Origin: a virus
Direction: 5' to 3' (one strand)
IMG/VR virus record: IMGVR_UViG_3300027749_000492
Coordinates: 1 to 22,871 of that record
DNA: 22,871 bases
Within the stretch, counting starts at the first letter, position 1. Every line of letters starts with the position of its first letter. Made by a program: the position numbers and the translations under genes. Below, piece by piece: positions 450 through 22,161 of the stretch. The notes below the pieces were generated by a model. It was not told the origin of the DNA and ran no database searches. It saw nothing but the letters and a program-made list of their open reading frames with translations.

Positions 450-715
450 TTATCAAACGTGCAATAGCCGTAGAAAGTTTGACCAAGGTTTGCGAAGAAA
501 GTTTAAACCTAATCAAACAATTGATTGACGCTGACAACGAAGTTTATGGCAAAGGCTTTGAGGATGGCATGGCGGCACAGGCCAAGGTTCAGCAAACCCT
601 TAAACCTTTGGCAAAGCTGACAGATGAAGAAATCATGCAAATTATGGAAATCGGTTTAGGGGTAAGAGACACCATCGACACCGCCCTTGAAAAATTAATG
701 GAGAAAAACCAATGA
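446..715 (+). CDS. hypothetical helical phage protein (89 aa)
   Basis: The function is not recognised. The start ATG overlaps the upstream stop (ATGA at 446-449) and is preceded by a purine-rich AAAGGAAAAG. The 89 residues look almost wholly alpha-helical, with a heptad-like stretch near the N-terminus (SLTKVCEESLNLIKQLI) and another at the C-terminus. There is no transmembrane stretch. The stop at 713-715 overlaps the start of the YqaJ-type nuclease, so the two are made from the same message with coupled translation. That position suggests a role linked to recombination or replication, but this is context only. Confidence 0.75.
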   Translation: MIIKRAIAVESLTKVCEESLNLIKQLIDADNEVYGKGFEDGMAAQAKVQQTLKPLAKLTDEEIMQIMEIGLGVRDTIDTALEKLMEKNQ

Positions 716-1338
716 TTGAACTTATGGAACAAGGTACAGAAGCCTGGTTCAACATCCGCATCGGCAAAGTCACCGCTAGTCGTGTTGCTGATGTGCTTGC
801 CAAAACCAAGACGGGCTACTCAACCACTCGTGACAATTACATGGCGCAATTAGTCTGTGAACGCTTGACAGGGCAGAAGGGTGAAAGTTTTACCAACGCT
901 GCCATCCAACATGGAATTGAAACTGAGGCGTATGCCAGAGCCGCCTATGAAGCCCGCTATGACGTTTTAGTCGATGAAGTGGGGTTTGTACCCCATCCCA
1001 CGATAGAAATGTCTGGTGCGTCTCCTGATGGTCTTGTTGGGGAAGATGGCTTGATTGAGATCAAATGCCCTAATACTGCGACACATATTGAGACTTTATT
1101 GTCTGAGTCTGTGCCGAATAAATACTACACCCAGATGCAGTTTCAGATAGCTTGCACAGGGCGCAAATGGTGCGATTTTGTCAGCTTTGACAATCGACTG
1201 CCTACCGAACTTCAGATGTTTGTAAAACGTGTCCCACGGGATGATATGTATATCAGACTGATTGAAGATGAAATCGTCAAATTCCTTGCCGAACTTGATA
1301 CCAAAATAAATCAACTAATGAAAGTCAAAAATGTCTAA
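712..1338 (+). CDS. YqaJ-type viral recombinase / exonuclease
   Basis: This 208-residue protein matches the phage YqaJ (lambda-Exo-like, PD-(D/E)XK) nuclease pattern. The N-terminus has QGTEAWFNIRIGKVTASR (7-24), the family's opening motif. A GIETE motif lies at 68-72. The catalytic core is SPDG (104-107) and EIK (116-118), giving the metal-binding Asp106 and Glu116 with Lys118. QMQFQ at 131-135 is the helix that follows the active site in this family. Length is normal. Family members degrade one strand of duplex DNA 5' to 3', leaving a 3' tail for an annealing protein. The upstream ERF-like fragment and downstream SSB-like gene fit that partnership. The start is set by an ATGA overlap and GGAG eight bases upstream. 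Confidence 0.92.
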   Translation: MIELMEQGTEAWFNIRIGKVTASRVADVLAKTKTGYSTTRDNYMAQLVCERLTGQKGESFTNAAIQHGIETEAYARAAYEARYDVLVDEVGFVPHPTIEMSGASPDGLVGEDGLIEIKCPNTATHIETLLSESVPNKYYTQMQFQIACTGRKWCDFVSFDNRLPTELQMFVKRVPRDDMYIRLIEDEIVKFLAELDTKINQLMKVKNV

Positions 1339-3707: not shown

Positions 3708-4136
3708 TTAAACAAACGGTCTAGTGCCTTGTTTATCAATAATAAGTGCTTGCTTACGGGGTTTTGCATCGGGGGTGTTTGGAATGCTTAAATGCGTCCA
3801 ACGGTCAAATTCCCGAATAACTTGATCGTAAGCCAGACTTGATGCGATGACAGTCCGCACCACTTGGTCAGGCGTTAATTCAGGAACTCGGATGTCCACA
3901 GCACAACCAATGCGATGCTGACTGCTATCTTTAGAACCCACCGCATCGTTGACTTGCTTGCTGCGAAAAGCAGAGTTAACCATAATTGGTCGCCCGCCCA
4001 AGGTCTGTTTGACTTCCTCAAGGAACTCTGCGAGGCGTTTGAGGTTTTCCAGTTCTGCATCATTTGGCGTATTATCATATTCACGGTGGTCGGTGTGGGT
4101 CAGTTCTTCAAGGGAAAAATGTTCAGTTAACTTCAC
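3708..4136 (-). CDS. peptidase M15-type endolysin
   Basis: The 142-residue product matches the M15 (D-Ala-D-Ala carboxypeptidase-like) endolysin layout. It has SAFRS at 55-59, His74 and Asp81 in SQHRIGCAVDIR (a HxxxxxxD zinc pair), and His115 in DRWTHLSI as the third ligand. The N-terminus (LTEHFSLEELTHTDHREYDN) is typical of phage M15 domains. It would cut peptidoglycan cross-links for lysis. The start codon is GTG (4134-4136), overlapping the holin stop as GTGA, with AGGG a short distance upstream. There is no signal peptide, so it needs a holin. The two membrane protein genes immediately upstream supply one. Confidence 0.88.
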   Translation of the reverse strand: MKLTEHFSLEELTHTDHREYDNTPNDAELENLKRLAEFLEEVKQTLGGRPIMVNSAFRSKQVNDAVGSKDSSQHRIGCAVDIRVPELTPDQVVRTVIASSLAYDQVIREFDRWTHLSIPNTPDAKPRKQALIIDKQGTRPFV

Positions 4137-4540
4137 TTTTTCACCCTGTCGGTTATTTTTTCAAGTGTTCTGCCGCCAAAATAGAACGACATCACAAGCA
4201 TCCCCCATTGACCAAGTAGCTCGACATAAGCACCACGAGTCTCGTACTCAAAGATTGAGGCGATGGCAAAGCCTGAATAGGCAATTAAAAGGAATATAAG
4301 GGTCATAGGGCGAATATTCTTGGACAACCAAGAGTCAGATGCCATATCCGCTTGAACACGCTGTGTGAGGTTGTTTTGTTCGGTTTTGTATAACTCAGTC
4401 TCGTTAGCCATCTTTGCCAACTCGCCATCTTGAGCCATTTTAGCCAAGTCCATCTGCGCTTTGGCTTTGGCTTCAGGATCAGGAATTAGCTTGTCAATGA
4501 GCTTGCCGCCAATGTTTAAAAGTGAATCTAGTCCGATCAT
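4133..4540 (-). CDS. holin, 3TM/GTA-type family
   Basis: This 135-residue protein begins with LLNIGGKLIDKLIPDPEAKA, the opening typical of the 'holin of 3TMs' family known from gene-transfer-agent release. A polar coiled region follows (about 25-65), then NIRPMTLIFLL leading into a hydrophobic segment (about 77-97) and a second one (about 108-123), with a basic C-terminus. It should make holes in the inner membrane to release the endolysin encoded directly downstream, with which it overlaps (GTGA). Its own start overlaps the preceding stop (ATGA), and AGGATG lies just upstream. Confidence 0.82.
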   Translation of the reverse strand: MIGLDSLLNIGGKLIDKLIPDPEAKAKAQMDLAKMAQDGELAKMANETELYKTEQNNLTQRVQADMASDSWLSKNIRPMTLIFLLIAYSGFAIASIFEYETRGAYVELLGQWGMLVMSFYFGGRTLEKITDRVKK

Positions 4541-5975: not shown

Positions 5976-8459
5976 TTAGATGCCTGCGTCTGCAAGGCGT
6001 TTACGAAGTGATTGAATTTCAGCAACAAGGTCAGCAATAACTTCAGAAGTGCTTGCTTGCATTGTTTGGTAAACAGGGTTTCCATTAGCATCTACAGCGT
6101 CTTTTGAACCAGAAACACTGCTTGCATAAACTTCTTGGAATTTATGAGCTAAAAAGCCACGAGTGCGTGAGTTGTCAGATTTTAATTCGTACTCAATAGG
6201 CTCAAGCGCATCAAGACGCTCACCATGTCCTGTAACAGCACCAATTACATTTTTTAATCGGTAATCAGAAGTGATGTTGTAAAGCACACCTGCTGAATTT
6301 ACAGTAACGCTACCAACAGTTGTGTTTGATGCATTTGCAAAAAATATACCCGCATCACCATTTGTTGCAACGCTAAACCATCCTGCCGCTTGGCCTGCTA
6401 CGGCTTTGGAAGCAAAATGAGCATAGGCCGTCGTAGTCCCCACCAGCAAGTTACCGCTTGAGTCTATACGGGCGCGTTCTGAACCAGCAGTAGAAAACGC
6501 CATTGTGTTGGTTGCCGCACCACCACTAATTTTCCAATGCTGAGTAACACCAGTTGTGTTTGATGCAATGTAGTTATAAATAGCACCATTATCATTTTGG
6601 GCTTCAATGTTGATAATAGAAGCGTAGTTTGCTAACTCGGCTTTAACCGTCATGGCCGCATCTATTGCTGTGGTAGTTGCAACAACAAGGCGGTTTGTAC
6701 CAGAGAGTGTTGTAGTACCAATTAACAACTGACCGCCCGACGCAAGACGCATCCGCTCTGTTACTGTATTCGGATATGTGCCTGGGTTTTGTGTTGAAAA
6801 GGTAAGTGAACCTGAATAATTTGAATCAGCAACACACGCAATTTCGGCATGTGAGTTATAACGTGCGCCAGAGTCTGTGTACAGTGCAAAACCAAGAATT
6901 GAACTGTACGATGGGCTACCACCAAATGGGCCGTTGGCATCAAGGTAATAATAAGCGTTGGCGTTAGAAGCTCCTAAACCACGAATAGTTGCGCTTGCCG
7001 AGTTTGTAGTTCCAATTTGCAATCTACCACTAGCATCCAGAGTCATTGCCTGAGTAAAGGTAATGGCGTTTCCTGCTGTGCCTGATGGGGCTATTTTGAA
7101 ACCAAACCCCCCATTTGCAATTTGTATAGCTGAAGCGGCTTGACCAGAAGTTGTATATTTAAATCCGCTTTGATAATAAGCATTACTTCCAATATAAGTG
7201 TCAGCGGTTGCTGCATAATTAGCAAGGAATCCATTTCCAATTTGCAAAGCTACATATGCATTCCAAGCACTAGGAGTAACTCCCAATCCTAGATTGCCTG
7301 AGGAGTTAAGAATAAAAGCATTTGCGTTTGCTGTATTGCCAATACTTAAATCGCCAGAACCTGTAGTCAATCCAATGTACAAATTACCATTAGAAGCCGC
7401 TTCAATGCGTCCAACATTAGTGCCGTTGTAATCGGTATAAATTCCAGAGTTGCCAGAAGTTCTTTTTACATACAAAGCAGAAGCAGGACTACTTGTACCA
7501 ATACCTAGACCTGTGCTGGTTAGGCGCATTTGTTCGGAGTTATTGACGTTAAAAAGAATGTTGTTTCCTGCGGCACTACCAGAAATTTTGATTAAATTTT
7601 TAAGAGAGACACCCGCACCTAATGTTAATGTGTGTGCATCATAGTAAGTAGTTAGATAGGCATCAGAGCCAGCCCCATCCATTGATAATTGAACACCGCC
7701 TGTAGATGTAGCCCAATTTGTCCCCGAATTAACACGAAAATTTGAACCGTCATAAGTAAGCGCAGAACCTGTAGCAAGCGCACTTGATGAAGATGCGTAA
7801 ACAACTCCACCAGAAGTAAAGGATGTCAGTCCTGTGCCGCCATTAGTGGTTGCCAATGTACCCGCAAGAGTTACTGCGCCTGTCGTAGCAGAGGATGGCG
7901 TAAAGCCCGTAGAACCCGCACTAAACGATGCAACAGTAGAGGCTGATGGGTTAAGCAACTGAAACCGTGTGCCATCGTACTCAATTTGATATACACGGCC
8001 ACTCACAATGTCACCCGCAGCCAAAGCCGTAGAACCGAGTTTTGTGATGTTCTTAGCACCCAAACTGTTCAGGTTAATTGTGGCCGCACCCGTATTCGTA
8101 TTAGGCGCAACAAATGAGAACAAATTACCCGTTGCATAAGCGGCAATTGCGGGCGATAACGTACCCACATAAGTGTCTGTTCCTGTTACGGTTGCAATGG
8201 TTGTTGCACCCGCCTGAAGTTGGCCATATTGAGCCGCATCAGTTGCCGCAGTACCCGCGCCCAAACCCGTGATCTTAAATCCCCCTAGAGGGATGTTTGC
8301 GGTTGGGGTTGTTTGTCCATCCTTGGTCAACGCAGTAGATAAACCCGTTGCCAAGTCAGCGGTCAGCAAGTTAAATGCTGTGCTAGTGATGGTTGTGCCT
8401 GTGACAACGGGCTGACCCGCTGTGTTGATATTGAACGTGCCTGAACCGTTGTAACTCAT
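5976..8459 (-). CDS. tail fibre/spike protein with C-terminal peptidase-S74 chaperone
   Basis: This 827-residue protein has an N-terminal virion-attachment-like region (about 1-95, with IPLGGFKITGLGAGTAATDA, common in podovirus fibres). A long Gly/Ser/Thr-rich beta shaft follows, then a C-terminal intramolecular chaperone from about 731 (SDYRLK). Ser731 and Lys736 would form the Ser-Lys dyad that cleaves the chaperone off after trimer folding. A closing helix (VIADLVAEIQSLRKRL) would form the trimeric coiled coil. The shaft carries five copies of a 'xSSGNLxxGTT' motif at about residues 310-325, 383-397, 472-488, 570-586 and 662-678. The fibre should bind the host surface. AAGGAA lies just before the ATG. 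Confidence 0.88.
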   Translation of the reverse strand: MSYNGSGTFNINTAGQPVVTGTTITSTAFNLLTADLATGLSTALTKDGQTTPTANIPLGGFKITGLGAGTAATDAAQYGQLQAGATTIATVTGTDTYVGTLSPAIAAYATGNLFSFVAPNTNTGAATINLNSLGAKNITKLGSTALAAGDIVSGRVYQIEYDGTRFQLLNPSASTVASFSAGSTGFTPSSATTGAVTLAGTLATTNGGTGLTSFTSGGVVYASSSSALATGSALTYDGSNFRVNSGTNWATSTGGVQLSMDGAGSDAYLTTYYDAHTLTLGAGVSLKNLIKISGSAAGNNILFNVNNSEQMRLTSTGLGIGTSSPASALYVKRTSGNSGIYTDYNGTNVGRIEAASNGNLYIGLTTGSGDLSIGNTANANAFILNSSGNLGLGVTPSAWNAYVALQIGNGFLANYAATADTYIGSNAYYQSGFKYTTSGQAASAIQIANGGFGFKIAPSGTAGNAITFTQAMTLDASGRLQIGTTNSASATIRGLGASNANAYYYLDANGPFGGSPSYSSILGFALYTDSGARYNSHAEIACVADSNYSGSLTFSTQNPGTYPNTVTERMRLASGGQLLIGTTTLSGTNRLVVATTTAIDAAMTVKAELANYASIINIEAQNDNGAIYNYIASNTTGVTQHWKISGGAATNTMAFSTAGSERARIDSSGNLLVGTTTAYAHFASKAVAGQAAGWFSVATNGDAGIFFANASNTTVGSVTVNSAGVLYNITSDYRLKNVIGAVTGHGERLDALEPIEYELKSDNSRTRGFLAHKFQEVYASSVSGSKDAVDANGNPVYQTMQASTSEVIADLVAEIQSLRKRLADAGI

Positions 8460-8468
8460 TTTGTTTCC

Positions 8469-10532
8469 TTATCTGCCGTATTGGTCAAGGTTTTGCCCAA
8501 TGATTGAACCCGCACCCGTTTGAATTTGTGTTGATCGTTTGTTAAGAGCTTCGATCAATTTCTTTGTGTTTTCAACTTCTAACTGCCCCGTTGGGCCACG
8601 CAATAACAGCATTTTAGCTAGTTCATTGCGGGTTGTCTCAGGCATTTGATTGATTACTTGACCAATTCTATTTTTAACATTAGCCGCCTCACCCGCAGCC
8701 GCCAATGGGTTGCCTGTGGCCGCATTAGCCACCGCTTTACCCGCAGCCATAGTCGTTGGCATCACGCCCAAATCTTCAGCGCCTGCCATCCTAGAGAAAG
8801 TACCCGAACCCCTTCCGACTTGCTCTAAAGGCTTCAATCGAGCTTCTTTGGCCACATCTTGAGCAAACCTTTGGTAGTTGTCACCAAATATTTCTTTCAG
8901 TCTGTTACTTGTGGCGGGTTCTTTCCACATCTTGAGCAAAGAAGTCTGACCCGCTTCTGTGCCTACTTTGTCTTTTAAAGACTGCAACGCACCTATGCGG
9001 AAAGCCTCCAATTCGCTTTTTGACATATTGCCCATTAAGTCCGACAAAGCAATATCATCTTGCTTCATGGCCGTTCTGCCCTTAACCACAGCATTACTCA
9101 ACTGTGATGGCCCTGCATACGCATCTAAGGCTTGACGGTAGATTGAGCCGTTCTTATCTGCGGGAGACAAAGCTGCAAGTTTGTCTGTCAATGCCACTCG
9201 CAAATCGTCATATGCTCGGCTTGTATTTGTCGCCTCGCCAAACTTACCACGGGCTGATTCACCCATGTCATAAAGTGATTGTTTAACAACATCCAAAACC
9301 TTCAAAGGTACATCATCGCCCGCCTTTAGCTTAGAAATGTCAATCGGCAACTGTCTGTTCAATTGCGTCAACAACTCAGCCTTACCATGCGCAGATGTTG
9401 AGGCTTGAATCAACTTTTGCAATTCAGGGTCAACTCTTAAAGACACATTTTCAAGTTGTTGATACAAAGGCGTTGCCGCTGCTTTCTTAGCCGCATCCAA
9501 CGCTTCCAATGTGGCCGTAAAGCCCTTACCCTGAGTGCCTAAAGCCTCGTCAGCCGCATTTGCAAGGCGTTCAGGTCTAAATGTCTGTTGCTCACGAATT
9601 CTGCGCTCTACGAGCGTTTTAGCTTGACCAGGCATTGAGGCCAACACATCCAACTGAGACAACGCACTTGGGCCACCCGCTTGTGCAATGCTTGCGTTAG
9701 GGTTTAAGCCCATTTCACGATGAACACGCAACAAAACAGAGTTTGAGCCGTCTGCACTTGAACCACGTTGTAAGGCTTGAGCAAGTTTAAGCCGAGCCGC
9801 ATCTACCGCTGCTTCAGGGATATACCTTTGGGCAACATTGCTACCCACGTTATAAATGCCTTGTCCTGTGCCTGATAAAACACCACCTGAAGCCGCAGAA
9901 ATTGCACCTTTTTTGGCAATATCTGCCGCATAATCTGCGGGGTTTAGAACGGGGTTAATGTCAGATGCACCAGCGGCAGAAATAGTGCCTTGTGTACCCG
10001 CCATTTTTGCGGCCATTGCCATTTTCTGTGCCGCAGACAACGCTTCTGCTGTTTGAGCCGCTTTGCTTGTCATCCCCAAAGGAGTGAGCAATAGTGGCAA
10101 ACCACCAACCGCTTCGCTCACAAATGCAGTTTTAGGATTAGTTTCCCTAAATTGCTCATTAACCCCTTTAATGTAATCACGGGTATTAGCGTAAGTTTCT
10201 GTCGGGTTTGCATTAAGGCCATGTTGCAAAATGTCCATGCCCGCAGCGCCAGCACCCGCAATCTTTGGGGCAAAGTTAAAAGTCAAACCTTGAGCCGCTG
10301 CCAAACCAATTTTGCTTGGCAAAGATAAGTCAGCTTGGCGACCTTCCACCATAGCGGGGGATTCAACTGTTTTTTCTACTGCGGGTTCAGAGGCCATGCC
10401 CCTCAAATCTATTTTTACAGGCGTTTGAGCAATCTTGACAACAGCCGCATTGATTTGGTCATCCGACATTGAAACAGGAAAGTTAACAGGCCCATAATTG
10501 GGAATCTCTACGGTTTTAAATGCTTCAGCCAT
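8469..10532 (-). CDS. large internal virion/ejection-type protein (687 aa)
   Basis: The protein opens with a small domain, VEIPNYGPVNFPVSMSDDQI (8-27), a pattern often seen at the start of phage internal virion proteins. An Ala/Gly-rich segment follows with GLTFNFAPKIAGAGAAG and NTRDYIKGVNEQFRETNP, then hydrophobic stretches (GGLPLLLTPLG; AQKMAMAAKMAG). The C-terminal two-thirds is mostly helical. There is no transglycosylase motif that I can see. It sits between the tail tube and fibre genes with two other large proteins, the place of T7 gp14-gp16, so I infer it is packaged and ejected with the DNA. Its start overlaps the preceding stop (TAATG). Confidence 0.68.
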   Translation of the reverse strand: MAEAFKTVEIPNYGPVNFPVSMSDDQINAAVVKIAQTPVKIDLRGMASEPAVEKTVESPAMVEGRQADLSLPSKIGLAAAQGLTFNFAPKIAGAGAAGMDILQHGLNANPTETYANTRDYIKGVNEQFRETNPKTAFVSEAVGGLPLLLTPLGMTSKAAQTAEALSAAQKMAMAAKMAGTQGTISAAGASDINPVLNPADYAADIAKKGAISAASGGVLSGTGQGIYNVGSNVAQRYIPEAAVDAARLKLAQALQRGSSADGSNSVLLRVHREMGLNPNASIAQAGGPSALSQLDVLASMPGQAKTLVERRIREQQTFRPERLANAADEALGTQGKGFTATLEALDAAKKAAATPLYQQLENVSLRVDPELQKLIQASTSAHGKAELLTQLNRQLPIDISKLKAGDDVPLKVLDVVKQSLYDMGESARGKFGEATNTSRAYDDLRVALTDKLAALSPADKNGSIYRQALDAYAGPSQLSNAVVKGRTAMKQDDIALSDLMGNMSKSELEAFRIGALQSLKDKVGTEAGQTSLLKMWKEPATSNRLKEIFGDNYQRFAQDVAKEARLKPLEQVGRGSGTFSRMAGAEDLGVMPTTMAAGKAVANAATGNPLAAAGEAANVKNRIGQVINQMPETTRNELAKMLLLRGPTGQLEVENTKKLIEALNKRSTQIQTGAGSIIGQNLDQYGR

Positions 10533-12124
10533 TATTCAACCCTTCCTGTTGCGGGATTGTAGGTAGGAATTCGACCTTTGCCCGCTTTGGTAGCGGCATT
10601 GTTCATGCCTGTTTGGATTGCATCTCTGAACTTGGACAATGCGGCTCTGAACGCATCAGGAGACTGCGCTGTTGAGGCTTCTGTCAATGCGGCTGTGGCC
10701 TTTGTACCTTCAATCTCAGAAATAGCGCCAGTTCCCTTCATGCGTTGAACAGCCTCAAGGAAAGCACCACCTTTAACTTGGTCATAAAGGGCTTTAAAGT
10801 CAGCCGCAGGAGTGCCGCTTTGACCTAACTTGTATTCAAAGGGAATCATTGTGCCAACAACATCTTTCAAACCCTTGTGTTCAGGAACAATAACCTTGCC
10901 GTTTGCGTCTTTAACGCCAATCATTTGGTCAATTCCACTAATTAAGGTTTGACCTTGTTGCATCACTTGTGGCAATGCTTGAGCCGCTGCTTGTTGTTCT
11001 TTAATTTGACCAACTTGCAACTCTTGTTGAGCTTTTGGCGACAAGGCGGCAGCCAAAGCCAAATTAGGCGCTGTAGGTTGCGCAACAGGGGGCGCAACGG
11101 GTCTAGGTTGAGGCGGTGCAACTGGTCTTGGTTGTGGCGCTTGCGTTGCGGCTTGTGCAACAGGCTGTGCCAAAGGTTGTGCCAAAGGTTGTTGCACGGG
11201 CTGAACAACGGGTTGCGTAACAGGCTGATTTGCCAAGGGGTTTGGTACTCCGACCTTCATTCCCGAGTTAAAGAACAGATCAGCCGCACTAATATTGAGT
11301 CTTGTCGCATCATTAGTGAGGGTTGCTTTATCTTTTGCGGATAGATTATTAAATGCACGATCAGAAATTTCGCGCTCTTGTGTCAATCTTGCTTGCGTGT
11401 CTGCGCTAACTGAGGGGACTAGTAAAGAGAAGTCTTTGCCGCCTCCCGCTGTAAATGCTTTTAAACTATCAGAAGTGAATTGGGCGGGATTGACATTGCC
11501 AAAAGGAGACTTTGATCCCGCTTTAAACATTTCAGCGCCTGTTGTAGGATTAAATGCAACATCACCTTCTTTAAGCACCAAAGGCGCTTTAGGAGCAAGT
11601 TGGCTCATATACATAGACAGGGCTTGTTGTTGCATACCAGGCGTTTTAAACTCGCCAATCAACGATGGGTCAAGAATACCCGCAGTTTTTGCGGGCATGG
11701 CGGGCATCGTGAACGCTTTTTGTTGGTCAGGTTGCATCTGCGCAAATGATGGCGCAAGGTTTGGATTATCCTCAAAGTCTCGTGCCGTTGGTTCTTGCTT
11801 CATTTCAGGCTTGGCCGCTTGGCCTTGCAAGCCCTGAATTAATCGCTGAATATCAGCAGAAGTATCCGCACGATATTGCTCGCCCAAAGCCTTTTGTTCT
11901 GTTTTTAAGCCCTCTTGGTTTTTATTGACCAAGTACATTTGAAGCACTTTAGCCAAACCTTGAACGGGGCTAATAGGGGCTTGGATGCCTTGATACGAAC
12001 CTGCCTGAATAGGTTCAAATGCTTGCTGTTGGAGAATCTCAGCCATCTTTTGGCGTCTGTCCAACTCTTGCTGTTGCAACTGATAAGGGTTTGCAACATT
12101 AAACTGTTCGTATTGATTAGCCAT
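10532..12124 (-). CDS. internal virion/ejection-type protein with Pro-Gln hinge (530 aa)
   Basis: The product has three parts. Residues 1-100 are Gln-rich and helical (YQLQQQELDRRQKMAEILQQ). Residues 300-353 form a Pro/Gln/Ala/Val linker made of xQPV/xQPL tetrads and two APQPRPV/PPQPRPV copies. Residues 375-530 form a compact helical domain with LISGIDQMIG, YDQVKGGAFLEAVQRMKGTG and ISEIEGTKATAALTEAST, a pattern I associate with phage virion proteins. No enzyme motif is visible. Gene order places it second of three large ejection-type proteins. The linker probably lets the halves move or thread. A GGGG-containing site overlaps the upstream stop. Confidence 0.65.
   Translation of the reverse strand: MANQYEQFNVANPYQLQQQELDRRQKMAEILQQQAFEPIQAGSYQGIQAPISPVQGLAKVLQMYLVNKNQEGLKTEQKALGEQYRADTSADIQRLIQGLQGQAAKPEMKQEPTARDFEDNPNLAPSFAQMQPDQQKAFTMPAMPAKTAGILDPSLIGEFKTPGMQQQALSMYMSQLAPKAPLVLKEGDVAFNPTTGAEMFKAGSKSPFGNVNPAQFTSDSLKAFTAGGGKDFSLLVPSVSADTQARLTQEREISDRAFNNLSAKDKATLTNDATRLNISAADLFFNSGMKVGVPNPLANQPVTQPVVQPVQQPLAQPLAQPVAQAATQAPQPRPVAPPQPRPVAPPVAQPTAPNLALAAALSPKAQQELQVGQIKEQQAAAQALPQVMQQGQTLISGIDQMIGVKDANGKVIVPEHKGLKDVVGTMIPFEYKLGQSGTPAADFKALYDQVKGGAFLEAVQRMKGTGAISEIEGTKATAALTEASTAQSPDAFRAALSKFRDAIQTGMNNAATKAGKGRIPTYNPATGRVE
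11066..11227 (-). repeat. Pro-Gln tandem repeat region inside the 530-aa virion protein
   Basis: This stretch codes for residues 300-353. Tetrads of the type [V/L]xQP recur (TQPV, VQPV, QQPL, AQPL, AQPV), followed by a duplicated PQPRPVAPP unit. At DNA level, GGTTGTGCCAAA appears twice in direct succession on the plus strand. It looks like a slippage-prone, in-frame linker. Confidence 0.8.
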
Positions 12125-12127
12125 GTT

Positions 12128-14902
12128 TTACCCCAATAAACCGTAGTTGACCATTTTGTAACCGCTTGGATGCATCAAGACAGCTTCAGGCATGACTTTC
12201 TCAACTTCATCAGCCATTACGCCTTGTTGACGCTCACCAAAGATGTCGTACTCATAAATTCCGATACCAAGTTTATGAGTGCCAATGCGCTCAATGTTTG
12301 ACTTTAATCTGCGGTCAGATGGAAACACAACTGGTAATGCCGCACCCGCAAGATTAAACAAACCGCTTGTCATAGCATTAGCGCCAGCTTGCTGAATACC
12401 GTAATTCTGCAATGCCGCATTACCCTGTGCTTGCGCACCCGCAAATATTGGTGCGGGGGCAATGTTTGTTGGGTTGTAACCTTGGAATTGAGGCATCTGC
12501 AATTGTGAGCCACTCATCAGGCCCGTGATTTCGTTCAAAGGCTGATTGCGCAAAGCAAGTTGTTTCTGCAACTCTTGTGTGGCCGCTTGATTAGCAAACT
12601 GACCCGCACCAAGGTTTTGGTTGTACTGCTGAAGTTGCGCGGCATTTGCCAATTGTTGTTGTTGGGCGGCAATGGCTTGATTTTGCGCAAGCGCTTGGTT
12701 TTGCATTGATTGCGTACCCATGCCTTGCTGATAATTTTGAGCCGCAGCCGCATTTGCAAGTTGTTGAGCCGTAACGCTTTGACCAAAGTTCTGTGCAATC
12801 GCTTGGTTTTGAGCTTGTTGTGCAGCCAACGCATTGCTGAAATTTTGCTGTGTAGCTTGATTTCCAAGTTGCTGATTTGTTACGTTTTGGCCAAAATTTT
12901 GGGCAACTGCTTGATTTGCCAACTGTTGAGCAGTTACGTTTTGACCAAAATTCTGAGCCGCAGCTTGATTTTGTGCCGCTTGCTGACCCATGCCTTGTTG
13001 GTAATTTTGACCTATTGCGGCATTGTAGGCTTGTTGATTTTGCAAATTTTGACCAAAGTTCTGACCAATAGCAGCGTTGTAAGCCTGTTGTTGCGCCAAT
13101 CCTTGTGCAGAATTTTGAGCAATAGCTTGGTTTTGTGCTTGTTGGTTTTGCAAGTTTGCACCAAAACCCGCTAATTGGGCTTGATTGGCAAACTGAGCAT
13201 TACCTTGTGCCTGACCATACTGTTGCGCTTGAGCTTGGTTTGCGGCCGCTTGTTGTTGCAATGCCGCATTTTGATTTTGTTGTATTGCCGCATTTGCCGC
13301 ATTAGATGCGGTCATTCCTTGTCCAAAGTTTTGTGCAACGGCTTGATTTGCGGCTTGTTGAGCAGCTAATCCTTGTCCAAAGTTTTGACCAATAGCGGCA
13401 TTTGCGGCATTTTGAGCCGTTATACCTTGACCAAAGTTTTGAGCAGCCGCTTGGTTTGCCAATTGTTGTGCATTTAAACCTTGACCATAATTTTGAGCAA
13501 TTGCTTGATTGCCCGCTTGTTGATTCTGCAAATTGACACCAAAACTTGCCAATTGAGCTTGGTTGCCAAACTGACCTGATTGCAACTGTTGGTTAAAGCC
13601 TTGGCCTTGAGCCGCATTTTGGGCTTGTTGAGCCGCCAAAGCATTGCCAAAGTTTTGTTGTATGCCTGTATTGCCGAATTGACCCGCAGCCAAGGCTTGA
13701 TTAAAGCCTTGTTGATTAGCCGCAGTATCCAAACCAATACCTTGCAAAGCCGCTTGGGTCAACAAATCATTTTGTTGTTGGCTTTGATCTCGCATTGCAT
13801 TTGTATATGCCTCACCACCCGCCACCAAACCTTGATTAGCCAAACTTTGAGCAGTCAGTTTTTGTTGGCGCTCTAATTGAGGCGCAAGCCGAGCCATGAT
13901 TGCCGCTTGGCCTGTCATACCCGCATTAACAGGCATTTGAGCCACATTACTCAAATTTAATTGGTTGTTAGCAAGGTAATTATTGGCGTTCAGGTTTTGA
14001 TTGATTTGACCAATGTTGCCAAGTGATTGCTGAAGATTAACGCCCTCAACACCGCCTTGTGCCGTGCCATATTGAGATGGGTTAATACCACCCGCCAAAC
14101 CATATTGATTTGCCCCAACACTACCTTGTGCCAAACCATACTGATTTGCACCAACATTGCCTTGAGCTTGCCCATATTGACCCGCGCCAATAGATGAAGC
14201 AGAACCATAACCGCCTAAATTTGGCGCACCCTGAACTTGTCCATAGTTGCCGTAACTGTCTTGCAAAGTTGGGCCACTTACGCCACCAGTTGCCGTTCCA
14301 CCTTGGAAGTTACCTCTAGCAGTTCCACCATAAACACCGCCAACGGCTTGGCCGCCTTGAAAATTGGCACTTGCTTGAGGATTGGCAACAGAACCTTGCG
14401 CTAAACCACTATCAACAGAACCATATGCTTGACCGCTTTGAACATTTCCTTGAGCAGTTCCACCCGTGACATTGCCGTAGGCTTTATCGCCCATAAATCC
14501 ACCACTAGCTGAACCCATTCCTGTTAAGTCAGGCGAACCTTGAATATTTCCCGAATTGGCAAGTGAGAAAATACCACCTGGCCCTGTGTACTGAAACGGC
14601 TTGCCAATGATGTCTGATGCGCTTGATAAACCCTTTTCACCAAGGCTTGCCATGCCTTGCTGAACTCTTTGCTGTGCCTCCAACGTAGCTTGAGCCGTTG
14701 GGGTCAAGTTCTGCATTATCGTTGGCTGATTTGTAACAGGGTCAAATATGACCGTTTGACTACCCAATGGGCCAATCACGTTAGGGTTGTTTAAATACCC
14801 TTGGGTTTTGGCCGTTTCTACGTTTGCTTGACCTTGAGCAGTAGCTGCCGCAGCGTAATCAGGCGTTGCGGGGGCTTTGGGTTGTGGGCATAAGAAAGCC
14901 AT
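12128..14902 (-). CDS. repeat-built Gln/Asn/Ala-rich virion protein with C-terminal S74-type domain (924 aa)
   Basis: The N-terminus (1-135) is non-repetitive. Residues 140-211 are eight 9-residue units (e.g. QAYGSVDSG, TARGNFQGG). Residues 239-286 are four 12-residue units (GANQYGLAQGSV). A mostly helical spacer (about 300-397) holds MARLAPQLERQQKL. Residues 398-775 are 21 consecutive 18-residue units of the type QNFGQGLxAQQxANQAxA with no insertion or loss. From Ser862 there is SDRRLKSNI...GVMADEVEKVMPEA, the opening of a peptidase-S74-type chaperone, but the protein ends 63 residues later at NYGLLG without a coiled-coil tail. Position suggests an ejection-type protein (first of three). It follows GNAT directly with AAGGAA before the ATG. 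Whether it self-cleaves at 862 is unknown. Confidence 0.75.
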   Translation of the reverse strand: MAFLCPQPKAPATPDYAAAATAQGQANVETAKTQGYLNNPNVIGPLGSQTVIFDPVTNQPTIMQNLTPTAQATLEAQQRVQQGMASLGEKGLSSASDIIGKPFQYTGPGGIFSLANSGNIQGSPDLTGMGSASGGFMGDKAYGNVTGGTAQGNVQSGQAYGSVDSGLAQGSVANPQASANFQGGQAVGGVYGGTARGNFQGGTATGGVSGPTLQDSYGNYGQVQGAPNLGGYGSASSIGAGQYGQAQGNVGANQYGLAQGSVGANQYGLAGGINPSQYGTAQGGVEGVNLQQSLGNIGQINQNLNANNYLANNQLNLSNVAQMPVNAGMTGQAAIMARLAPQLERQQKLTAQSLANQGLVAGGEAYTNAMRDQSQQQNDLLTQAALQGIGLDTAANQQGFNQALAAGQFGNTGIQQNFGNALAAQQAQNAAQGQGFNQQLQSGQFGNQAQLASFGVNLQNQQAGNQAIAQNYGQGLNAQQLANQAAAQNFGQGITAQNAANAAIGQNFGQGLAAQQAANQAVAQNFGQGMTASNAANAAIQQNQNAALQQQAAANQAQAQQYGQAQGNAQFANQAQLAGFGANLQNQQAQNQAIAQNSAQGLAQQQAYNAAIGQNFGQNLQNQQAYNAAIGQNYQQGMGQQAAQNQAAAQNFGQNVTAQQLANQAVAQNFGQNVTNQQLGNQATQQNFSNALAAQQAQNQAIAQNFGQSVTAQQLANAAAAQNYQQGMGTQSMQNQALAQNQAIAAQQQQLANAAQLQQYNQNLGAGQFANQAATQELQKQLALRNQPLNEITGLMSGSQLQMPQFQGYNPTNIAPAPIFAGAQAQGNAALQNYGIQQAGANAMTSGLFNLAGAALPVVFPSDRRLKSNIERIGTHKLGIGIYEYDIFGERQQGVMADEVEKVMPEAVLMHPSGYKMVNYGLLG
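12578..13711 (-). repeat. 21 tandem 54-bp units (18-residue repeats)
   Basis: This stretch codes for residues 398-775 of the 924-residue protein. Each 18-residue unit follows Q-N-[F/Y]-x-x-x-[L/V/M]-x-x-Q-x-x-x-N-x-A-x-x. The register holds exactly from unit 1 to unit 21 (starts at 398, 416, 434 and so on to 758). The units are diverged in DNA sequence, so this is an old or diversified array rather than fresh slippage. Units 3-4 and 10-11 form a matching two-unit variant (QFxNQAQLAxFGxNLQNQQA), hinting at a higher-order duplication. Confidence 0.9.
14045..14188 (-). repeat. four tandem 36-bp units (12-residue repeats)
   Basis: Residues 239-286 of the 924-residue protein read GAGQYGQAQGNV, GANQYGLAQGSV, GANQYGLAGGIN and PSQYGTAQGGVE. 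Units 2 and 3 are nearly identical in DNA. This Gly/Gln/Tyr-rich period differs from the two other repeat periods in the same gene. Confidence 0.85.
14270..14485 (-). repeat. eight tandem 27-bp units (9-residue repeats)
   Basis: Residues 140-211 of the 924-residue protein are eight 9-mers of the type x-A-x-G-x-[V/F]-x-x-G: KAYGNVTGG, TAQGNVQSG, QAYGSVDSG, LAQGSVANP, QASANFQGG, QAVGGVYGG, TARGNFQGG, TATGGVSGP. The Gly and alternating hydrophobic positions suggest a beta or glycine-loop structure. Confidence 0.85.
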
Positions 14903-14904
14903 GT

Positions 14905-15342
14905 TTATTCCTTAAATTCGTATGTTTCGCCTGATGGTTCATAGTTTGCTCGCTGAAGCAACACGCTCAAATCTTGATCTTTTTTGTGGCTAATCATAAT
15001 TTGGCTAACACCATTGATTTTGAGCATTTGCCCTGCTAATTTCAGCATTTTGCAAATTCCAAGACCGCCTCGATGCTCAGGCAAAACATAATAAAAGACA
15101 TCTAATGCTTGCATTGCGCCATAAAAAGGCGATCTGAACACCATAAAACCCGCATGACCCGCCAATTCACCCGATTCGGTGCGCAAAGTGAAATATGCGA
15201 AATTTCCTGTTCTTTCTAGCTCAATCATGCCGCCTAAATCGCTTTTTAGGTTGCCGTTGCCATAAAGTTCAGCCCAATGTTTGCCAATAAGCGCCACGGC
15301 TTCGGCTGAAACATCGGCAAATCTTTCCATTTTTGCGTTCAT
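14905..15342 (-). CDS. GNAT-family N-acetyltransferase
   Basis: The open frame reaches 15387. ATG 15340-15342, which overlaps the tail tube B-like stop as ATGA with AAGGA upstream, gives a 145-residue protein of normal GNAT length. Acetyl-CoA binding motif A appears as YVLPEHRGGLGICKML (85-100), with R/H-R-G-G-L-G at the pyrophosphate-binding turn. It follows a central strand (DVFYYVLP). The later strand (GVSQIMISHKKD) and a C-terminal strand also fit. It should transfer an acetyl group from acetyl-CoA to an amine. The substrate, host or phage protein, is unknown. It is the only clear metabolic-type enzyme among the structural genes, and such genes recur in podovirus tail modules. Confidence 0.85.
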   Translation of the reverse strand: MNAKMERFADVSAEAVALIGKHWAELYGNGNLKSDLGGMIELERTGNFAYFTLRTESGELAGHAGFMVFRSPFYGAMQALDVFYYVLPEHRGGLGICKMLKLAGQMLKINGVSQIMISHKKDQDLSVLLQRANYEPSGETYEFKE

Positions 15343-16880
15343 ATGCCAGCCCATCCTTGTTGGAACACCACATCGGTTGAAGCCCACTCAATTTGCAAGC
15401 CCTTTGATGCTGATTTTAGCTGAATACCCGCACAATATCCAATGCCTGTGACGCCTTGCCAGTTGTTTGTGATGATCGTCCCACTTGACCACAATGCGTT
15501 GTCCCATGTTGACGTTCCCCATATTCCATAATTGGATGGGCTGAAGTTTAAAGTCCCCGTTGTGTCTGCCAAACTAAAATCAACATTAATACCGACCAAA
15601 ATTGTGGGCGCTCCATCTGTAAAAATAGAGGGTCTTGCTCGTGTGAAATATTTTTTAACGCCACGGCTTTCGTAATAGTTAAATGCTTGCAAAACGACAG
15701 CATTGATTTCGTTGCCATCATCGGCAAACCCATCCCAAGCCAAGCCAACATATCCATCACCGCCAAAATATGGGTTGTCGTTAAATGTCTCCCAACAATT
15801 AGCGTTCCATCCCGTGAATCTTGTCCATGACTTTGTAATCGTATTCATCACAAACTGCTCTTGCGCACCAAGGCCAACAGGCACATTGATCCACAAAGCA
15901 TTGTTTTTGGCGTGATAAAGCAAAGCCCACCCAAATGAATTTTGGTAAGCCGTTGTCGCCTCAGTAATAGCGCCCTGAATCTTGTCTGATAGATTAACCC
16001 TTGGGTCAAGTCGGCTTGATTGCAACGCTGAAGCCAACGGCAATAGACCGTCCAAACTTAAAACCAATAGGTCGCCACCATACTTGTACAAACAACGCCT
16101 AGAAACAGGCGCTCCGAGCTTCCAAATGCCCGTTAAAGCCCATGTACTAGCAGAGGCGGGGTCAGTACCTCGGTAAACAATAATCTCGCCCTGTGAAGTC
16201 ACAAAAACAAGGTTATCGTCTACGCCATAACCCGCATCAATTGTCCAAGCACTAATAGAAACAATGTAACCACCCATTCGGGCAATAGAACTCAAGTCTA
16301 AAACCTCGGCAGCGCCACCAACTGAGTTGGTCGGTAAGTACCATGCTTTTAGACTTTCTTTCTCAATAAACCAAACACGGTTTTTAAACAAGGTGACATT
16401 GTTCAGCTTGTTTGTGGTCACGCCCGTAATAGCGATGGGTGAGCTTGAGGCGTTGACGCTTTGCCACGTTGTGCCGTTGTAGAGGAGTGGATCATCTACG
16501 CCATTGCAAGCATAAAGGAAGCTACCTCCCGCGGTTGTGACGTTGATATGCTCAAAACGGCTGTTAGTAAGTCCTGTTTTCACAGCAGCGCCCACCGCGC
16601 CTTTGGTTGTGCAGTTGTAAATTGAACCATTGGCAACCGCAAACAGCTTGCTGACGCTTCCCGTCTCATAGGCCATGACCGTATCAACTTGGCCTGTGAT
16701 ACCCGTTGACCATTTGCTGAACCCACCGCGCAAGTTTACACTTGAAACAGTAGGGAAGAAATTAGTCATCGTCACCGCATCTGTTGGCGACATATTGGCC
16801 AACGAATCGCGCACATTCCACCCGCCAACGGGCGCAGGAATACTCGCTACATTAGCGGCAGTTCTTTGGGCAATTTTCAT
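15339..16880 (-). CDS. tail tubular protein B-like (tail nozzle) protein
   Basis: The 513-residue protein opens with IPAPVGGWNVRDSLANMSPT and DAVTMTNFFPTVSSVNLRGG. This opening is typical of a family of podovirus tail proteins related in role to T7 gp12. The rest is beta-rich with recurring strand-turn units (LFAVANGSIYNC; NLVFVTSQGEIIVYRGT; LLVLSLDGLLPL), consistent with a beta-propeller nozzle. It follows the tail tube A-like gene with a one-base TAATG overlap, as gp12 follows gp11 in T7-type genomes. It should extend the tail and guide DNA. The assignment is by N-terminal pattern and synteny. Confidence 0.75.
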   Translation of the reverse strand: MKIAQRTAANVASIPAPVGGWNVRDSLANMSPTDAVTMTNFFPTVSSVNLRGGFSKWSTGITGQVDTVMAYETGSVSKLFAVANGSIYNCTTKGAVGAAVKTGLTNSRFEHINVTTAGGSFLYACNGVDDPLLYNGTTWQSVNASSSPIAITGVTTNKLNNVTLFKNRVWFIEKESLKAWYLPTNSVGGAAEVLDLSSIARMGGYIVSISAWTIDAGYGVDDNLVFVTSQGEIIVYRGTDPASASTWALTGIWKLGAPVSRRCLYKYGGDLLVLSLDGLLPLASALQSSRLDPRVNLSDKIQGAITEATTAYQNSFGWALLYHAKNNALWINVPVGLGAQEQFVMNTITKSWTRFTGWNANCWETFNDNPYFGGDGYVGLAWDGFADDGNEINAVVLQAFNYYESRGVKKYFTRARPSIFTDGAPTILVGINVDFSLADTTGTLNFSPSNYGIWGTSTWDNALWSSGTIITNNWQGVTGIGYCAGIQLKSASKGLQIEWASTDVVFQQGWAGI

Positions 16881-21046: not shown

Positions 21047-21388
21047 TTATCTCCTATGATATTTCATTTGATTGACTTGCTCACGCAATGAATTCATGAT
21101 TTGATTGGCCTCGTTTTGGGTCATGTTTCCCAACTGTTGAGCCAATACCTCACGCCGTTTCTCGCTTGAAGGCGGTGTGATTTTTGTTTCCATTGATTCA
21201 TTGCCCACCTCAATACATCCATGCGCTTTCAGATGCTCGCGGTGTCGGCTTCGGCTCTGGATCATAGAACCGTCAATCATTGATTGATAAGGGGTAATGT
21301 CGCCCATTATCATAGGAGCTTGTATATCGTCACTGGCTTTGTGTTTTTCAACCAATTCGCCATTACGCATAACGTAAGTTGTTCTCAT
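21047..21388 (-). CDS. scaffold-associated hypothetical protein (113 aa)
   Basis: Residues 1-65 include MRTTYVMRNGELVEKHKAS and ITPYQSMIDGSMIQSRSRHR, then EHLKAHGCIEVGNE. This block recurs in many phages next to the scaffold gene, though I know no function. Residues 75-89 (SSEKRREVLAQQLGNM) resemble the RRxLLxxQF motif at both ends of the scaffold. The C-terminus is a helix (QIMNSLREQVNQMKYHRR). The start overlaps the preceding stop (ATGA), and a GAGGA lies rather far upstream. I infer a head-assembly partner of the scaffold; a single His/Cys-containing motif (HREHLKAHGC) might bind metal. Confidence 0.7.
   Translation of the reverse strand: MRTTYVMRNGELVEKHKASDDIQAPMIMGDITPYQSMIDGSMIQSRSRHREHLKAHGCIEVGNESMETKITPPSSEKRREVLAQQLGNMTQNEANQIMNSLREQVNQMKYHRR
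21051..21055 (-). promoter_or_regulatory. ribosome binding site that fixes the TTG start of the scaffold gene
   Basis: AGGAG on the minus strand, then ATAACT, then TTG at 21042-21044. The site overlaps the 3' end of the preceding gene. There is no ATG near it in the right frame; the next in-frame Met is about 75 codons on. Confidence 0.75.
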
Positions 21389-22161
21389 AGTAGCAAAATT
21401 TCCTCGTCATCTGATTCGATGTGGTCGTCCCAAATTAACTGCATTTTGTCCAAATTAGACAGCATTTTCTGAATGTCTGTCAATGTGACATTTTGCTTCG
21501 TTGCGATTGTAGCAAATGTTTCAACGTAAGGCGCAATTATTTCTTCGGGTATTTTGCCTTCAACAATGCGCTCGTATGCCGCAACAATCTCGTCTCTGCG
21601 TTTTTTATTCTTTTCTTGCTCAAGTTTATGTTGTTTCTTGCGCTTATCAGGGCCAGGGTCATGGGTGTCGTCAATGTAGATAATAGGCTTGAAAGCCGTA
21701 AGAGTGCCAACCGCGCCCGTAGCCTGGACACCCGTTAATTGGATTGATTTTAAGATTGATGCAAAGGATCCCGCAAATCCTGTTGCTGATACACCATTGA
21801 TGCCAATTGAACTGTTAGGGGTTATAGAGCCAGCTAGTCCTGAAGCCGAGACGCCACTCAGGGCGATAGTCACTGACCCGCTTTGATTGCCTGCAAAACC
21901 AGAGGCCTGGACACCAGTTAGCCCAATGGTTATGTTGCCAACAACCGAGCCAACAGCGCCTGTGGCTGATACGCCCGTTAATGTGGCAACAGTTGCCTCT
22001 AAAACAACTCCAACAGCGCCTGTGGCCTGAACGCCTGTTAATGCTGCGCTAACGGCGACACTAGGGCTGCCAACGCCGCCCGTAGCCTGATTGCCTGTTA
22101 ATGGGAGACTATCCCATTGAGCATCATCCCAAGTACCTGTGTCCCAAGGCCCTTGTGCCAT
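21385..22161 (-). CDS. virion protein with seven tandem 20-residue Gly/Val repeats (258 aa)
   Basis: Three regions are visible. Residues 1-20 (MAQGPWDTGTWDDAQWDSLP) form a Trp/Asp-rich head found in phage structural proteins. Residues 21-160 are seven units beginning LTGVxATGAxG, each 20 residues long (unit 6 has 21). Residues 165 onward are highly charged and helical (KRKKQHKLEQEKNKKRRDEI), ending in an acidic tail (ESDDEEILLL). It probably forms a beta-rich stalk or surface structure. The start overlaps the preceding stop (TAATG), and no clear Shine-Dalgarno is visible, so translation may be coupled. It is upstream of the scaffold and capsid genes. Family not named. Confidence 0.7.
   Translation of the reverse strand: MAQGPWDTGTWDDAQWDSLPLTGNQATGGVGSPSVAVSAALTGVQATGAVGVVLEATVATLTGVSATGAVGSVVGNITIGLTGVQASGFAGNQSGSVTIALSGVSASGLAGSITPNSSIGINGVSATGFAGSFASILKSIQLTGVQATGAVGTLTAFKPIIYIDDTHDPGPDKRKKQHKLEQEKNKKRRDEIVAAYERIVEGKIPEEIIAPYVETFATIATKQNVTLTDIQKMLSNLDKMQLIWDDHIESDDEEILLL
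21682..22101 (-). repeat. seven tandem 60-bp units (20-residue repeats)
   Basis: Units start at residues 21, 41, 61, 81, 101, 121 and 142 of the 258-residue protein. The conserved core is [L/I]xGV[Q/S]A[T/S]G[A/F]xG, followed by nine or ten variable residues with alternating hydrophobics. Unit 6 carries one extra residue. The DNA of units 2, 3 and 7 is similar in the core, so an origin by tandem duplication is likely. Confidence 0.88.

Follow-up and report, generated by a model that had tools for sequence, protein, structure and literature searches.

The window (the whole stretch of viral DNA that was analysed, 22,871 nucleotides) carries on its minus strand a run of virion genes whose order includes a major head protein (PHROG 9953), a tail protein (PHROG 6013) and a hub-like protein (PHROG 5107), and then an acetyltransferase-like protein, the protein studied here (P0001), a gp20-like protein (PHROG 2534) and a PHROG 5880 protein. 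P0001 and its neighbours lie as follows.

15339..16880, minus strand: hub-like protein in the slot of P22 gp10 (PHROG 5107, E 2e-129; synteny with Mx8, P22 and phiGT1)
14905..15387, minus strand: N-acetyltransferase-like protein in the slot of P22 gp14 (PHROG 1249; the same-slot protein of phiGT1 is annotated as gp14-related)
12128..14902, minus strand: whole gene of P0001, a 924-aa virion structural protein (open reading frame and translation; PHROG 6121)
10532..12124, minus strand: P22 gp20-like ejection protein (PHROG 2534, E 1e-17)
8469..10532, minus strand: gp16-slot protein (PHROG 5880, E 3e-31)

The P22 gene order is gp4, gp10, gp26, gp14, gp7, gp20, gp16, and the succession gp10 - (gp26) - gp14 - gp7 - gp20 - gp16 is matched here without a gp26-like gene. 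P22 gp20 also matches PHROG 2534, but over another part of the profile, and phiGT1 gp19, likewise of PHROG 5880, is annotated as weakly similar to P22 gp16. Between the gp14-like and gp20-like genes, P0001 holds the same gene-order place as the DNA ejection protein of P22 (gp7) and Sf6 (gp11; PF25688, PHROG 598). In phiGT1 the same slot, between the gp14-related acetyltransferase and the injection proteins, holds an S74 'putative structural protein' (PMC10386132). If the phiGT1 naming (IVPA = P22 gp14) is extended, the equivalent slot in T7 would be that of the core protein gp14, which is 196 aa long and builds the section of the ejection channel at the outer membrane (PMC11784390, PMC8954989). 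Products of this slot exit the virion in both P22 and T7 and help to build the DNA conduit (PMC8402733, PMC11784390, PMC8954989).

By its gene order, P0001 would thus be an ejection protein, internal to the virion, of the P22 gp7/T7 gp14 slot, in agreement with the sequence-only reading, which had reasoned in terms of an ejection protein; homology to P22 gp7 was not detected. P22 gp7 is 229 aa long and without arrays, profile comparison with it by hhalign gave E 0.3-0.5, and a Pfam search for its family, PF25688, found no match in P0001 or its relatives. The assignment to the ejection slot therefore rests on gene order, not on descent.

Elsewhere in the window, a 208-aa protein at 712-1338 (plus strand) has by eye the look of a YqaJ-type recombination nuclease, and 3708-4540 (minus strand) encodes a lysis pair, an M15 peptidase (PF08291) adjoining a GTA-type holin (PF11351). 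The gp20-like protein contains proline/glutamine low-complexity repeats at 11087-11227 (QPVAQP, PQPRPVAPP), and a 258-aa protein at 21385-22161 (minus strand) contains a repeat of roughly 20 residues, of the type TGVQATGAVGxV, in several copies.

P0001 matches PHROG 6121 ('virion structural protein') with E 6e-47 in a profile search, best over residues 698-922; this match extends beyond its S74 domain, and the array-less homologue L071 matches the same family over residues 4-360 (E 3e-61). Members of PHROG 6121 include Mx8 p54 and proteins of Rhizobium phage RHph_N2 and Microcystis phage Mwe-JY13, to which phiGT1 gp17 can be added by slot and S74 domain. They resemble P0001 in the N-terminal, tip and C-terminal regions, the S74 end and the gene slot (the tip region aligns with Mx8 p54 at 47% over query residues 337-408); unlike P0001, however, the proteins of these isolates are about 320-345 aa long and lack both limbs. 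The literature searched yielded no description of coupled arrays in PHROG 6121 proteins. P0001 itself is built from the following parts.

14627..14902, minus strand: N-terminal head, residues 1-92 (helix, beta-hairpin and helix in the AF2 model; kept in array-less members)
13934..14626, minus strand: Gly-rich limb, residues 93-323 (length covaries with the 18-mer array)
14276..14524, minus strand: 9-mer zone within that limb, residues 127-209, 83 aa (matched in number by the 18-mers of the array's C-terminal part)
14189..14275, minus strand: middle block within the same limb, residues 210-238, 29 aa (co-occurs with the marker 18-mer)
14054..14188, minus strand: 12-mer zone within the same limb, residues 239-283, 45 aa (one for each 18-mer of the array's N-terminal part, less a constant; residual 0.00)
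13727..13933, minus strand: tip, residues 324-392, a 69-aa helical hairpin (constant length; AF2 helices 331-356 and 364-405)
12578..13711, minus strand: 18-mer array, residues 398-775, 21 units (repeat analysis; long helices in AF2)
13172..13225, minus strand: marker 18-mer QQYGQAQGNAQFANQAQL, residues 560-577 (divides the array for the antiparallel test)
12320..12577, minus strand: C-terminal domain, residues 776-861 (kept in array-less members)
12131..12319, minus strand: Peptidase_S74 intramolecular chaperone, residues 862-924 (PF13884, E 2.6e-6, above the cut-off)

The C-terminal Peptidase_S74 chaperone is the sole Pfam match in P0001 (28.1 bits against a curated cut-off of 22) and suggests that the protein forms trimers. 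Ser862 and Lys867 fall at the positions of the known S74 cleavage dyad (S-D-x-x-x-K, a spacing known from endosialidases), and P0001 may cleave itself at this domain. The putative tail fibre of the window (827 aa, 5976-8459, minus strand) also has an S74-like end, just under the Pfam cut-off, so the phage seems to have two S74-type proteins. Locus L090 (MW202675, 5179-8736) encodes a protein of 1186 aa with an S74-like domain at mid-length, followed by an apparent transglycosylase domain; self-cleavage there would cut the protein in two.

The 18-residue array, first described in the sequence-only reading as 21 exact units, was confirmed with a spacing of 18 throughout. Self-identity was 0.46 at a lag of 18 and 0.52 at a lag of 36, compared with 0.18 +- 0.02 in shuffled sequences (maximum 0.25 of 500). 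Conservation is strongest at N14 (21/21 units), A16 (20/21), Q1 (19/21) and F/Y3 (18/21), with an aliphatic residue at position 7 in 19/21 and Q10 and Q11 in 16/21 each. To the positions singled out earlier (3, 7, 10, 14 and 17) must be added Q1, Q5, Q11 and A16, which are equally conserved. A 9-residue half-repeat within the 18-mer is suggestive only (p 0.06). The array of P0001 contains neither charged residues nor proline.

Homologue searches returned about 150 viral loci, nearly all uncultured contigs, some of them partial and some overlapping copies of one contig. Among the 134 open reading frames carrying all three conserved anchors, the tip measured 69 aa in every one, and its distance to the C-terminal motif was 13 modulo 18 in 132; the two that depart from this phase (L117 and L139) are both short, divergent members. 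Related viral contigs carry from none to 34 units, array length differs even between close relatives, and the units are absent from five proteins of 362-429 aa. Comparison of P0001 with L003 over the array gave a dN/dS of about 0.08 with dS about 1.0, so the array is under purifying selection and not a product of recent slippage. Literature searches on 18-residue repeats in phages and on coupled repeats found nothing relevant.

The Gly-rich stretch between head and tip consists of 9-residue units (for example GGTAQGNVQ) and 12-residue units (for example GANQYGLAQGNV), and array-less members lack both this limb and the array. Across 103 unique sequences, with nothing excluded, the length of the Gly-rich limb correlated with the number of 18-mers at r 0.974; removal of eight outliers, selected by residual and inspected afterwards, left 95 unique sequences at r 0.998. 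Six of the eight have an obvious non-repeat insert, and L075 is mis-anchored or irregular. In the remaining one, L026, which lies at a contig edge, the Gly-rich limb predicts about 17 units and the array has 11; its array is probably a collapsed assembly. The relation found in the first set was then applied to 36 loci fetched later: its predictions missed by no more than one unit in 35 of them, and the mean bias was 0.34 unit. As a negative control, the lengths of the downstream gp20- and gp16-slot proteins showed no such relation to unit number (r 0.03 and -0.01). Among prophage relatives in Rhizobiales (L158-L200, genome contigs), most lack both limbs, and L157, L159, L169 and L189 carry, at the same site, short inserts that resemble the array.

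Many of these sequences are related metagenomic contigs whose repeats assemblers can collapse, and the correlation might in principle stem from shared ancestry or assembly artefact only. We find this hardly credible: phylogenetic contrasts still gave r 0.998 (80 contrasts, 73 with agreeing sign), 21 distinct unit combinations occur within clade A, and collapse would destroy the match, as L026 seems to show.

How the two limbs are matched was examined in 27 sequences of clade A that have both the distinct middle block and, in the array, the marker 18-mer. In these, unit number = L1/9 + L2/12 + 8 with a residual SD of 0.16, a total rule that P0001 also obeys. With 9-mers and 12-mers counted as one each, the unit model fitted better than one based on residue length (F 102, p 4e-10), and matching by residue length was rejected. 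The middle block and the marker 18-mer occur together in 27 sequences and are both missing in 13, with one discordant case. An antiparallel expectation was recorded before the close-pair and split tests, with the zones, however, defined on the same sequences. The split bore it out: the number of 18-mers before the marker was 5.53 + 1.000 x m12 with a residual of 0.00 (n=27), and the number after it about 3.2 + m9 with a residual of 0.15 unit (n=27), which is not zero because the 9-mer zone of some members has inserts of 2 residues. With the zones paired in parallel, r was only 0.61 and 0.62, and this arrangement was rejected against the near-exact antiparallel split. In close pairs, the positions of gained units showed the same opposite-order pattern. 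Mutual information between paired units was swamped by position-specific end units.

At sequence level, the two limbs are thus shown to be coupled one to one, in antiparallel order and by unit count. Such an exact opposite-order match between two unlike arrays is strong evidence, from sequence alone, for physical pairing, and most likely the limbs lie paired alongside each other, the chain running out to the conserved tip and back. An overall correlation would also be obtained if the two stretches were non-touching spacers, matched in total length since they join the same two ends. This is very improbable, because the marker split shows that the match holds separately on either side, and in units, not residues.

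The fold of the array is less directly read. In the AF2 prediction (monomer, 21-23 sequences), the array of P0001 formed long helices (492-636 and 654-784) and no strands, with block-mean pLDDT up to 80 but low confidence overall (mean pLDDT 51.7, pTM 0.25). The head comprised a helix (16-38), strands (42-66) and a second helix (68-100) at block-mean pLDDT 51-77, and the Gly-rich limb was unstructured in the monomer. The earlier view of the array as helical is thus favoured by the model, within the limits of a monomer prediction at this confidence. No proline was found in 21,831 array residues of the homologues, and this, with the near-absence of indels, fits a helix. The proposed amphipathic face of an 18-over-5 helix did not survive: the hydrophobic share at 100 degrees was 0.01-0.05 (permutation p 0.66-0.83), conservation at 100 degrees was flat (share 0.01-0.03), and hydrophobicity peaked instead at 80 degrees per residue, a period of 4.5. 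On a helical wheel, positions 3, 7, 10, 14 and 17 do fall on one side, but the equally conserved Q1, Q5 and A16 lie opposite.

Because of the 80-degree peak and the conserved positions on both sides of the wheel, a beta-solenoid is retained as a rival. The two limbs would then be adjacent antiparallel solenoids, with 18-residue coils in one and 9- or 12-residue coils in the other, one coil per level, and the rod would be about 10 nm long, not 57 nm. The 4.5-residue hydrophobic period suits such a fold, as do the Gly and Asn content and the near-invariant Asn14, which could form a ladder; Gly-limb units of unlike length count equally, as solenoid loops permit. However, AF2 gave long helices, and solenoid turns usually tolerate both proline and indels, of which the 18-mers have none and almost none, respectively. 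Moreover, clade-A Gly zones vary by steps of 9, 11 or 12 residues and never shorter, 2-residue inserts aside, as an extended span of 27 angstrom would require. We therefore consider the solenoid quite unlikely. Structure searches were of limited use: Foldseek with the P0001 model, a weak query, returned nothing from the PDB at E below 0.001, the short homologue L051 matched mostly S74 'intramolecular chaperone' proteins among viral models, and the family profile had no match among PDB chains outside S74.

Taken together, the two coupled repeat stretches, found across dozens of related phages, suggest an out-and-back rod that grows in fixed steps. In the model that we favour, the chain would leave the N-terminal head base as an extended Gly-rich limb, turn at the tip and come back through the 18-residue repeats, which probably form a long helix, to end in a C-terminal base with the S74 trimerising chaperone. 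One Gly-rich unit of 9 or 12 residues would stand against one 18-mer in opposite order; a helical 18-mer spans about 27 angstrom, as does a 9-residue segment at 3.0 angstrom per residue, and the 12-mers would need a bulge. Contact between the limbs, within or between chains, would accompany the helical array and the trimer. The resulting trimeric arm, about 19-92 nm long across the family and 57 nm here, would move the conserved tip off the base during DNA delivery, and its length would shift by gain or loss of paired units. We regard it as probable, though well short of certain, that P0001 is such a two-limbed rod, an ejection protein of the gp7/gp14 slot acting as a length-adjustable delivery arm, and its presence in virions is part of this proposal. 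The sequence-only reading was right in part; it lacked the Gly-rich partner of the array and its coupling unit for unit, as well as the S74 domain and the length variation among close relatives.

Several points weigh against this model: the low mean pLDDT and pTM, the unstructured Gly limb, a hydrophobic period odd for a helix and the failure of profile comparison and Pfam to link the family to P22 gp7. Some family members also lack the S74 domain; two of these (L048 and L049) have a Gly-zipper-like hydrophobic tail that by eye recalls the P22 gp7 C-terminus. With a head of about 60 nm, there would be little room for straight rods of 57-92 nm, so that an internal protein would need to be packed unfolded, its rod forming only on ejection, or else the rod is external.

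The latter is the main rival to an ejection arm. The paired rod would be an external fibre or tail needle outside the tail, where it would stand in for the gp26-like needle of P22, which is missing here, and serve for reach or as a plug; it would never be ejected. S74 domains are commoner on external fibres, typically trimeric ones, a subunit of a long tail fibre (6f45) is the best PDB match to the S74 region of the family, and the hub and acetyltransferase genes have no separate needle gene between them. Rods of up to 92 nm would be too long for the head, and unit number differs among close relatives while the gp20- and gp16-slot proteins do not follow. P22 gp26 is a trimeric coiled-coil needle; as a long trimeric rod it compares with P0001 in function only, since its slot differs and it has no second limb. 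Against this rival, P0001 does not follow the hub directly: its gene has the gp14-like gene ahead of it and the gp20-like one immediately behind, which is the gp7 slot. Nor is an S74 end foreign to that slot: Pseudomonas phage AH02 gp11 occupies it, matches the P22 gp7 PHROG (598) over residues 2-185 and yet carries S74 at its end. We judge the external rod unlikely on these grounds and retain the ejection arm as the preferred reading.

Sequence rarely reveals an architecture so directly. A helix and an extended Gly-rich chain of one protein, held antiparallel in fixed register, with steps of about 2.7 nm setting the DNA-delivery reach of short-tailed phages, may be a previously undescribed architecture, a suggestion that we offer tentatively. 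It provides a testable fold together with a natural length series of up to 34 units, and the unit-matching rule may flag misassembled repeats in metagenomes. For the phages themselves, the family offers a handle on how short-tailed phages may tune their reach over cell envelopes.
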